From an uncultured Clostridia bacterium (lineage in GTDB: Bacteria > Bacillota > Clostridia > Oscillospirales > CAG-272): a DNA stretch of 36,881 nt. The notes below the pieces were generated by a model. The model worked only from the letters and a program-made list of their open reading frames with translations, made no database searches and was not told the origin of the DNA. The DNA lies in the NCBI GenBank assembly GCA_946410595.1, contig CAMKAU010000012.1:1-36881 (forward strand), written 5' to 3'. The translations under genes and the position numbers were made by a program. Of this stretch, positions 5,078-9,594 are shown one piece after another. Each line of letters opens with the position of its first letter. Position 1 is the stretch's first letter.

Positions 5078-6757
5078 TCAGAACAGCCCGGAGATCTTGC
5101 CGTTTTCGTCGACGTCGATGCGTTCGGCGGCGGGGGATTTCGGCAGGCCGGGCATCGTGAGGATGTCGCCGGTGAGGACGACGACGAAGCCCGCGCCCGC
5201 GGAGATCTTGACGCTGCGGACGGTGACGTCGAAATCCTCCGGCGCGCCGAGCTTTTTCGGGTCGTCGGAAAAGCTGTATTGCGTTTTGGCGATGCAGACG
5301 GGGCAGGCGCCGAAGCCGAGCTCCTCGAGGCGGGCGATCTGCTTTTTCGCCTCCGGGGTGAAGACCGTTCCTTTGCCGCCGTAGATCTTTCTCACGACCG
5401 CGTCGATCTTCTCCGCGATGGGGAGAGAGTCCGCGTAGGAGAAGCGGAAGTCGCCTTTCTCCTCCTCGCAGAGGCGGACGACCTCGCGGGCGAGCGCTTC
5501 GCCGCCCTTGCCCCCTTCCGCCCAGACGGTGGAGAGGACGGTGTTCACGCCGAGGGCGCGGCACTTTTCGATGATGAAGCCGATCTCTCGGTCGGTATCG
5601 GTCGGGAAGCGGTTGACCGCCACAACGCAGGGGAGGCGGTAGACGTTTTTGATATTCGAGACGTGGCGCAGGAGGTTGGGGATCCCGCGCTCCAGCGCGC
5701 CGAGGTCCTCGGTCGCCAGCTCCTTTTTATCGAGCCCGCCGTGCATCTTGAGGGCGCGGACGGTCGCCACGATGACAACGGCGTCCGGGGTGAGCCCCGC
5801 CATCCGGCACTTGATATCGAGGAACTTTTCCGCGCCGAGGTCGGCGCCGAAGCCCGCCTCGGTAACGGTGTAGTCGCCCATTTTGAGCGCCATGCGCGTC
5901 GCCATGACCGAGTTGCAGCCGTGGGCGATATTCGCGAACGGCCCGCCGTGCACGAACGCGGGGGTGCCCTCCAGCGTCTGGACGAGGTTGGGCTTCAGGG
6001 CGTCCTTGAGGAGCGCCGCCATCGCGCCCGCCGCCTTGAGCTGGCCACAGGTGACCGGCACGTCCTCGCTGGTGTAGCCGACGATGATGCGGGAGAGGCG
6101 CTCCTTGAGGTCGGTGATCGAGGAGGAAAGGCAGAGGACCGCCATGATCTCCGAGGCGACGGTGATATCGAACCCGTCCTCGCGCGGGACGCCGTTCGCC
6201 TTGCCGCCCATACCGTCGACGATGAAGCGGAGCTGACGGTCGTTCATGTCCACGCAGCGCTTCCAGGTGATGCGGCGGACGTCGATATTCAGCTCGTTGC
6301 CCTGCTGGATATGGTTATCGAGCATCGCGGCGAGCAGGTTGTTCGCCGCGCCGATGGCGTGGAAATCGCCGGTGAAGTGGAGGTTGATATCCTCCATCGG
6401 GACGACCTGCGCGTAGCCGCCGCCGGCGGCGCCGCCCTTGATCCCGAACACCGGCCCGAGCGAGGGCTCGCGCAGCGCGACGGTCACATCCTTGCCGATG
6501 CGCCGGAGACCGTCCGCGAGGCCGATGGTGGTGGTGGTCTTCCCTTCCCCCGCCGGGGTGGGCGTGATCGCGGTAACGAGGATCAGCTTGCCGTCCTCTT
6601 TGTCCGCCGCGTCCCGCAGAAGGGAGAGATCGACCTTCGCTTTATAGCGGCCGTAATGCTCCAGATACCGCTCCTCCACGTGGGCGGTACGCGCCACCTC
6701 CGAGATCGGCTTCATCTCGCAGCTTTGCGCGATCTCGATATCCGAAAGGTATGCCAT
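5078..6757 (-). CDS. fhs: Formate--tetrahydrofolate ligase
   Basis: [22 protein letters not shown]...[20 protein letters not shown]...[40 protein letters not shown]; start chosen at 6757 with a TAAGGAGGAAAG ribosome-binding site (ORF track extends further 5'). Confidence 0.97.
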
Positions 6758-6818: not shown

Positions 6819-7448
6819 TTACGCCGCCGTTTCCTCTTTTTTGTCAAACAGGGAGATGAACGCCGCGCCGGCGGCGTTGCCGGCGAGGATCAGAAGGATA
6901 TAAAAGAGCGCCTTTGCCGTATAGCCCGGCACCGCCTCGAACCCCGCCGCGAGATAGAAGATATCGGCGACGCTGTGTTCAAAGCCCGAGAGGATGAAAA
7001 CGGGGATGCAGAAGAGGATGCCGAGCGGCGTTTTCTTCTCCCGGTAGATACTGACGGCGAGATACATGAGGATCCCGCAGAAAAAGGCGCGCGCCAGACT
7101 GTCCGGGACCGACTGCGCCAGCTTTTCTCGCGCAAGGGCGGACGCCGCGGCATAGAACTTTTCCCCGCAGGCGAAGGCGAGCAGCGCGGAGCCGACGGCG
7201 CCGGCAAAGTTCCCCGCCAGACCGAGAAAGAGGACGGAGAGATCTGTCTTCGTGTGGCTTTTGGTGAGATAGCCGACCTTGCCGGTGAAAAGCGAATAGT
7301 CCTTATAGCAAATACAGAGCAGCGCGACGGAAAAGAGAACGGCGCCGACCGTTTTGCTCTCCGCCGCGAGGTAAACGCACCCGCCGATCGAGACGAGCGC
7401 GCCGGCGGCCACGCCGGAAAAAAAGCGGGAGAAAATCCGTTTTGCCAT
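6819..7448 (-). CDS. Formate/nitrite transporter (FNT) family channel
   Basis: [27 protein letters not shown]... with FNT motif [12 protein letters not shown] and about six hydrophobic segments; start at 7448. Confidence 0.88.
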
Positions 7449-7621
7449 GAGCGATCCTTTCTTCTTCCGCGGTCCCGCCGCGGTTTTTCCCCTCTCCGGA
7501 CAAAAAAACCCCGCCGGAGACCCGGCAGGGGGCAAACGCATGATAACCGACGCGGCAGCCGGTATTCCCGTGCGGAAATGCGCGGCTCCTTATCGAACTC
7601 CCGTATCGTCTTTAAGTTGCC
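7449..7621 (-). promoter_or_regulatory. Candidate riboswitch/attenuator leader of the FNT-fhs operon, class unassigned
   Basis: ~170-nt leader between a consensus promoter and the FNT start with multiple pairing elements (UUCC/GGAA, ACCG/CGGU, CGCAU/AUGCG, GAUAA/UUAUC) before an intrinsic terminator. Confidence 0.55.
7501..7532 (-). terminator. Intrinsic terminator inside the FNT 5' leader (attenuator)
   Basis: On -: CCCC-U-GCCGG-GUCU-CCGGC-GGGG-UUUUUUU, located 54-85 nt upstream of the start codon and downstream of the promoter. Confidence 0.75.
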
Positions 7622-7627
7622 ATTATG

Positions 7628-7657
7628 ATTATAGCATCCCCCCTTTCCCTTTGTCAA
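7628..7657 (-). promoter_or_regulatory. Consensus sigma-A promoter for the FNT-fhs leader
   Basis: On -: TTGACA (7657-7652), 18-bp spacer, TATAAT (7633-7628). Confidence 0.85.
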
Positions 7658-7794: not shown

Positions 7795-9594
7795 ATGTCG
7801 AACGAAAAGAAAATACCGGCGCGTTCCGAGGTGCCGGAGGAGTTTACCTGGAACCTGAAGGATATTTACGAAAGCGACGACGCGTGGTTTGCCGACTATG
7901 AAGAACTGAAAAAACTGCCGGAGAAGGTCGCCGCCTTTGCGGGGCGCCTCGGCGAGAGCGCGGAAACGCTCCTTGCCTATCTCAAGCTCGACGACGAGAT
8001 CGGTCTTTCCCTTTCCCGCCTGCACGGCTACGCCTCCCGCAAGGGGGACGAGGACGTGGGAAGCGGCTTTTACCAGGATATGCGCGGCAAAGCGACGAGT
8101 CTCTGGATCGCGGTCGGCAGCGCCGGCGCCTTTGCCGTTCCCGAGATCATGGCGATCCCCGACGAAACGCTGGACCGCTGGTACGGAGAGGAAAAGGAAC
8201 TGGGCGTTTACCGCCGCAGTCTTTACCAGATCCGCCGCCGCAAGGCGCATATCCTCTCCCCCGAGTGCGAAGCGCTGCTCGCCGCCTCCGGCGAGATGGC
8301 GGAAGCGCCGGAGGAGATCTCCTCCGTCTTTGAAAACGCCGATCTGAAGTACCCCGCCGTTTCCGACGCGAAGGGGGAAAAACACGAGCTGACCGGCGGA
8401 ACGCTGGTGCCGCTCCTTGAGAGCAGCGACCGCGTCCTGCGCAAAAACACCTTTGAGACCTTCTATACCCGCCTCGGCGAGTTCCGCAACACCGCCGCGG
8501 CGACGCTGAACGCCCAGTTCAGGCAGCTGCGCTTCTACGCGAACGCCCGCAAATACGAAAACACCCTCGCCGCCTCCCTCGACCGCACCGAGGTCCCGGT
8601 CGAGGTCTATCACAACCTGATCGCCGCGGTCCACGCAAATCTCGACAAAATGTACCGCTACGTTTCCCTGCGCAAGCGGATGCTCGGGGTCGACGAACTG
8701 CACATGTACGACGTTTATACCCCCATCGTGGCGGACAGCGCCGAAAAGATCCCCTACGAAAAAGCGAAGGAAACGGTCCTCTCCGCCCTCTCCGTTCTCG
8801 GCGACGACTATACCGCGATGCTGCGCGAGGGCTTTGAAAACCGCTGGATCGACGTCTACGAAAACGTCGGCAAGCGCAGCGGCGCCTACTCCTCGATGGG
8901 CCGCCCGCACCCCTACGTTCTCCTCAACCATCACGACAACCTCGACAGTCAGTTCACGCTGGCGCACGAGATGGGCCACGCCCTGCACAGCTATCTCAGC
9001 TGCAAGAACCAGCCGGTCTCTACCTCCGAGTACGTGATCTTCGTGGCGGAGGTCGCCTCCACCTGCAACGAAGTGCTCCTGATGCGCCGCCTCCTCGCCG
9101 AAACGACCGACAAAAAGCAGCGCGCCTATCTGATCAATCACTTCCTTGACCAGTTCAAGGGGACGATCTACCGGCAGACCATGTTCGCGGAGTTCGAGTT
9201 GGAGATGGGCCGGATGGCGGAAAACGGCGAAACGCTTACGGCGGACGCCCTCTGCGAAAAGTACCACGCCCTCAACAAGCTCTACTTCGGCCCCGATATG
9301 GTCTCCGACGACGGGATCGCCCTGGAGTGGGCGCGGATCCCGCACTTCTACTACGATTACTACGTTTTCCAGTACGCGACCGGCTTTTCCGCCGCCGTGG
9401 CGATCGCCAACCGCATCCTGCGGGAAGGCGCGCCCGCCGTGGCGGACTACAAGCGCTTCCTCTCCGGCGGCAGCAGCGCAGACCCGATCTCGCTTCTGAA
9501 GATCGCCGGCGTGGATATGAGCACGCCCGACCCGGTCAATTCCGCTCTCGCCCTCTTCGGCGAGCTGCTGGATGAAATGGAAACCCTTTTGTAA
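7795..9594 (+). CDS. pepF: Oligoendopeptidase F (M3 family metallopeptidase)
   Basis: 599 aa; HEMGHALHSYLS zinc site; typical N-terminus EVPEEFTWNLKDIYESDDAW. Confidence 0.95.
   Translation: MSNEKKIPARSEVPEEFTWNLKDIYESDDAWFADYEELKKLPEKVAAFAGRLGESAETLLAYLKLDDEIGLSLSRLHGYASRKGDEDVGSGFYQDMRGKATSLWIAVGSAGAFAVPEIMAIPDETLDRWYGEEKELGVYRRSLYQIRRRKAHILSPECEALLAASGEMAEAPEEISSVFENADLKYPAVSDAKGEKHELTGGTLVPLLESSDRVLRKNTFETFYTRLGEFRNTAAATLNAQFRQLRFYANARKYENTLAASLDRTEVPVEVYHNLIAAVHANLDKMYRYVSLRKRMLGVDELHMYDVYTPIVADSAEKIPYEKAKETVLSALSVLGDDYTAMLREGFENRWIDVYENVGKRSGAYSSMGRPHPYVLLNHHDNLDSQFTLAHEMGHALHSYLSCKNQPVSTSEYVIFVAEVASTCNEVLLMRRLLAETTDKKQRAYLINHFLDQFKGTIYRQTMFAEFELEMGRMAENGETLTADALCEKYHALNKLYFGPDMVSDDGIALEWARIPHFYYDYYVFQYATGFSAAVAIANRILREGAPAVADYKRFLSGGSSADPISLLKIAGVDMSTPDPVNSALALFGELLDEMETLL

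Follow-up and report, generated by a model that had tools for sequence, protein, structure and literature searches.

The window, by which we mean the whole 36.9-kb stretch of DNA analysed here, carries on its minus strand FNT, a gene of the formate/nitrite transporter family (6819–7448; PF01226, 5.1e-24), followed by fhs for formate-tetrahydrofolate ligase (5078–6757; PF01268, 1.7e-273; NF010030 above its cut-off). The identities given to both genes in the first-pass annotation are thus supported by Pfam and NCBIfam. A divergent neighbour, pepF (oligopeptidase F), occupies 7795–9594 of the plus strand. Our promoter scan confirmed the reported sigma-70 promoter TTGACA-18-TATAAT at 7657–7628 of the minus strand, where both hexamers and the spacing of 18 are a perfect match and a TG before the -10 makes it an extended -10 promoter; two promoter-like sites were found in the scanned 2 kb compared with 0.3 expected. 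From the likely transcription start to the FNT ATG (7448) the leader measures about 173 nt, in agreement with the ~170 nt given earlier, and the intrinsic terminator ahead of FNT was also confirmed, as CCCCUGCCGG-GUCU-CCGGCGGGG-U7 at 7531–7502 (minus). Promoter, leader and terminator make up a transcription attenuator, and to this extent the proposed riboswitch-like attenuator before FNT-fhs stands, while its reading as a riboswitch is unsupported. Between the terminator and FNT, at 7467–7483, we also observed a perfect inverted repeat, CCGCGG-CGGGA-CCGCGG, which is not found in the congener G004; T5 follows it on the plus strand, where it is terminator-like.

The leader occurs once in the window's own genome (G000). 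In a family set of 198 genomes, homologues were found in two of the five congeners (G001–G005), namely G004 (90% identity) and G005 (75%), and in no others; a 23-base match in G037 (L010), inside a protein gene that is dihydroxy-acid dehydratase-like by translation, was set aside as chance. The pepF neighbour has the same position in G004 and G005 and anchors the leader across all three genomes. The promoter is shared as well, being identical in G004 and, by alignment, identical in its hexamers in G005. The gene order in G004 is leader-FNT-fhs, as in G000. In G005 the leader, again beside pepF, heads pyrC-carB-pyrK-pyrD-pyrF-pyrE-pyrB, that is, the whole de novo pyrimidine operon, in which the gene names come from our reading of the translations (the same sequences served as queries in the absence tests described below). 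FNT of G005 lies elsewhere, between purM and purN. This is the usual order (purM-FNT-purN, within the pur operon) at the closest loci of FNT relatives, and the placement suggests formate import serving purine synthesis. Many gut Clostridia have an FNT-family gene between purM and purN (L012:1001–1630 and some 25 loci). The pur operon at L012:2266–4202 presumably encodes, from our reading of its sequence, a separate PurO-like IMP cyclohydrolase beside a single-function AICAR transformylase.

The first-pass annotation had suggested that the leader could be a new riboswitch class sensing formate, a folate or a C1 intermediate. Its position before FNT-fhs, its terminator and the lack of an Rfam match over cut-off all speak for such a reading. 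In a scan of the whole window no Rfam family reached its cut-off, and the covariance models of the ZTP riboswitch (RF01750) and of the THF riboswitches had no match in the window, which bears out the remark that neither of these is present. A permissive scan of the leader gave chance-level matches only, with none to RF00515 up to E 10; the anti-hemB match, which at 15.4 bits falls short of its 49.5-bit cut-off, and the others were discarded as terminator look-alikes. Against the riboswitch stands G005, where the homologous leader is of PyrR type and heads pyrimidine rather than C1 genes; the association with FNT-fhs is secondary. Among the FNT relatives searched, only those of G000 and G004 were found to have a leader of this type directly ahead of FNT. 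That the compact structure described earlier is unusual was not confirmed: without its terminator the leader folds like shuffled sequences (z -0.07; 93 of 200 shuffles fold as well), with the terminator z is -1.47, and as there is no excess folding over shuffles, structure alone gives the leader no mark of an aptamer. Most of the proposed helices are poorly conserved. The GAUAA/UUAUC pairing of the suggested pseudoknot falls from 5/5 pairs in G000 to 2/5 in G004 and 3/5 in G005, UUCC/GGAA from 4/4 to 2/4 in both, and ACCG/CGGU, 4/4 in G000 and G004, drops to 1/4 in G005; the CGCAU/AUGCG pairing counts 5/5, 5/5 and 4/5. The UCUCCGG/CCGGAGA pairing that was proposed as a possible competitor of the terminator would fail on the order of its parts, as CCGGAGA lies 3′ of the U-tract, is transcribed only past the termination point and so could not compete in time; it corresponds to the ribosome-binding region of pyrC in G005. 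Given the setting of the leader in G005 and how poorly the suggested pairs are conserved, we reject the new riboswitch, to which we attach a very small probability. The accompanying remark on ZTP riboswitches and fhs genes was historically apt, since in relatives FNT and fhs lie in a pur operon behind a ZTP riboswitch.

The true class of the FNT-fhs leader is visible only in its relatives. The G005 leader aligns with RF00515, the PyrR attenuator family, over the full model (1–115 of 115) at 26.7 bits, below the gathering threshold of 54 bits. That threshold is reached by none of the 198 family genomes and is therefore non-discriminating in this family; the window leader also lies below it. Among the 30 best sub-threshold RF00515 loci in the family, 27 have the PyrR pattern CUUUAA..CGGUAC-NGNGA-..CCGGCAAG followed by a terminator, most of them with pyrR or pyrC directly downstream, and three (L038, L044, L047) were excluded, being common hairpins or terminators. 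From the 27 sites, with the window's genus excluded, we built a covariance model, R1. Two-sided changes are present in 6 of the 10 pairs of its two helices, exceeding all 500 shuffles and the slid versions, in a shuffle test that is inflated by the relatedness of the sites. R1 scores 23.7 bits on the leader of G004 and 22.4 bits on that of G005, with no other hit across the 38 kb of these two regions. In the window its sole match below E 10 is the leader (7585–7623, minus; 10.8 bits, E 5.3), a score that alone is not significant but is found at the position predicted by homology. The filtered genome-wide R1 search missed both G000 sites and the G004 permease site discussed below, which were recovered by unfiltered local searches.

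The R1 match, the R1 scores of the homologues and the alignments together delimit a putative, degenerate PyrR-type binding loop (the anti-antiterminator) in the window, CUUAAAGACGAUACGGGAGUUCGAUAAGG, at 7588–7616 (minus). All three genus members have the 5-nt loop CGGGA, one base short of CNGNGA. In G004 and G005 a two-part hairpin with a purine-rich internal bulge is seen, CUUUAAGA-CGAUA...UAUCG-ACAAGG, of which the window copy has 3 of the 5 upper-stem pairs left. A site at L091 bridges the variants with CGAUA-CGGCGA-UAUCG (36.8 bits), the stem being as in the genus and the loop as in the class. Downstream of the loop follows the variable middle, or spacer hairpin, region (7537–7587, minus), in which 24 of 58 columns differ between the window and G005 and whose G005 counterpart falls, in the RF00515 alignment, on the variable middle hairpin of the model. 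Judged by sequence, the window leader is a PyrR-type attenuator by descent; as its loop, score and target genes place it outside strict membership, we regard it as a degenerate variant rather than a working member. As a separate observation, the leader at L091:731–770 (plus; JAFRWU010000026.1) lies before a ZTP riboswitch and purE, not before pyr genes, and pyrC, elsewhere in that genome, comes with a PyrR site of its own (35.3 bits); L091 is perhaps a second PyrR leader separated from its operon.

How a pyrimidine leader could have come to precede two C1 genes is suggested by G001, in which a single contig still carries the older, full arrangement pyrC ... pyrB ... purE purC purF purM FNT purN ... 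purH purD purL fhs, purE being preceded by a ZTP riboswitch (G005 also has a ZTP riboswitch). In protein searches, G000 and G004 lacked pyrC, pyrB, purM and purL, all of which were found in the other four genomes; the genomes are MAGs, so that these absences rest on the completeness estimates, 98.6% for G000 and 97% for G004. The two genomes were assembled separately and agree, which makes a chimeric contig unlikely. A remnant of the purM 3′ end, GAAGAAGAAAGGATCG (7444–7467, minus), recognised by aligning this stretch to purM-FNT of G005 as well as to G004, now lies upstream of and overlaps the FNT start; in G004 this scar retains the last codons, GEERIALC plus stop, and in G000 it is present in a worn version. 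At 7485–7500 (minus), TCCGGAGAGGGGAAAA, the counterpart of TCCCGGAAAGGAAACAAG upstream of G005 pyrC, is probably what is left of the ribosome-binding region of pyrC. Since the pyr and pur genes are missing and the tail of purM stands before FNT, it is most likely that deletions joined FNT-fhs to the leader of the pyr operon. A common ancestor of G000 and G004 would have lost, from one large cluster, its pyr genes and most of its pur genes, and leader-FNT-fhs would be what remained; two deletions, pyrC–purM and purN–purL, would explain the present order, the number two being our own reading. The sequences show the homology, the order and absence of genes and the scar of purM, and we consider it very probable that the FNT-fhs leader descends from the attenuator of a PyrR-controlled pyr operon, transplanted by deletion and now degenerating in G000; the binding of PyrR and a response of FNT-fhs to pyrimidines in G004 are our inference.

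In PyrR control, UMP-bound PyrR stabilises an anti-antiterminator and the terminator forms (PMC7430163; PMC4347634). In a working copy of the leader described here, UMP-bound PyrR would accordingly stabilise the anti-antiterminator hairpin, no antiterminator would form and the terminator would halt transcription. At low UMP, the hairpin's 3′ strand would pair with the 5′ arm of the terminator, and transcription would continue. Across the family, the hairpin 3′ strand forms a more stable duplex with the region downstream of it than with the corresponding regions of other leaders (-12.0 versus -10.2 kcal/mol; 0 of 10000 permutations, with relatedness uncontrolled), mostly at the terminator arm. 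The corresponding duplex of G004 lies on the terminator arm at -11.1 kcal/mol, that of G005 is weaker at -5.4 kcal/mol, and the best duplex of the window lies off the terminator arm.

Would PyrR still act on this leader? The protein is encoded in G000, G004 and G005 (NF003549, 237–238 bits; G000:C13:35293–35820 with 238 bits, cut-off 138). G001–G003 have no NF003549 match over cut-off and no PyrR-type leader in front of their pyrC genes, so that PyrR control is unevenly distributed across the genus. A second PyrR leader in G000, on contig C43, precedes an NCS2/uracil permease gene (L160:1309–1418; RF00515 38.1 bits, full length), with its R1 site at L160:1307–1346 (plus; 19.7 bits) and a corresponding R1 site in G004 on contig C67 (L161:2853–2892, minus). 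If the attenuator were still fully working in the window's genome, pyrimidine supply would control formate uptake and formyl-THF synthesis. The retention of PyrR under purifying selection (dN 0.017 and dS 0.23 between G000 and G004) is in line with this, as are the promoter and terminator stem, which have no changes between the two genomes, but the binding loops argue otherwise. Between G000 and G004 the permease loop has 0/33 changes, whereas the FNT-fhs loop has 5/29, about the synonymous rate (pS 0.17–0.20), and at that rate the chance of 0/33 changes is < 0.003. Four of the five changes are seen in G000 alone, among them two that disrupt the upper stem at its top (U-U, A-G); the energy of the window hairpin drops to -1.9 kcal/mol. 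We take this to mean that the permease site is kept and that the FNT-fhs site of G000 is drifting, and we consider a fully working attenuator in G000 rather unlikely.

With the stem top and the antiterminator pairing lost, PyrR control of FNT-fhs in G000 is probably weak or gone, while in G004 it is possibly active. Transcription of FNT-fhs in G000 would then probably start at a strong promoter and pass a leader that is for the most part unregulated and terminates partially. A simple constitutive leader whose terminator leaks, with no sensor and no regulatory descent, is another reading, for which the decayed sensor and the strong promoter could be cited. Such a leader may describe the present behaviour of G000 but not its origin. 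The homology to the G005 PyrR leader and the R1 scores of G004 and G005 argue against it, and we find it very improbable. A more tentative idea, which we think possible but would not bet on, is that this clade, having lost its pyrimidine and purine pathways, brought formate transport and the synthesis of formyl-THF under PyrR-UMP control, which would be active in G004-like species and degenerating in that of the window. If true, a regulator captured by deletion fusion would have been caught at two stages.

We found no literature linking PyrR to formate genes. What is new here is the gene fusion and its decay, a modest novelty, as the attenuator class is already known. The locus is a clear natural case of operon erosion. 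A biosynthetic supercluster has gone, and the two C1 genes that survive have inherited the attenuator of another pathway; the sensor decays, and the promoter and terminator stay. It also illustrates how gene context can mislead the naming of ligands for orphan leaders when downstream genes have been swapped by deletion.

Among known systems, the ZMP/ZTP riboswitch (RF01750) is related to this locus by context, since it precedes the pur operon of relatives with FNT (and, in G001, fhs), but it is absent from the window, lost with the deleted pur genes. The permease leader of G000 is of the same class and in the same genome as the FNT-fhs leader and, like all in the family, scores below the 54-bit RF00515 cut-off; it differs in that its hexaloop CCGCGA is intact and unchanged between G000 and G004. 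The closest likeness is to the RF00515 PyrR attenuators of Firmicutes pyr operons, with which the genus leaders share the succession of a binding hairpin with a purine-rich bulge, a variable middle hairpin and a terminator, a hairpin 3′ strand complementary to the terminator arm (in G004 and the family), a pyr operon downstream (in G005) and the presence of PyrR. They differ in the loop CGGGA, one base shorter than CNGNGA, and in their targets, which are pyrimidine genes in G005 and FNT-fhs in G000 and G004; the window copy departs furthest, with its stem top broken, its score below every cut-off and FNT-fhs downstream instead of pyr genes.
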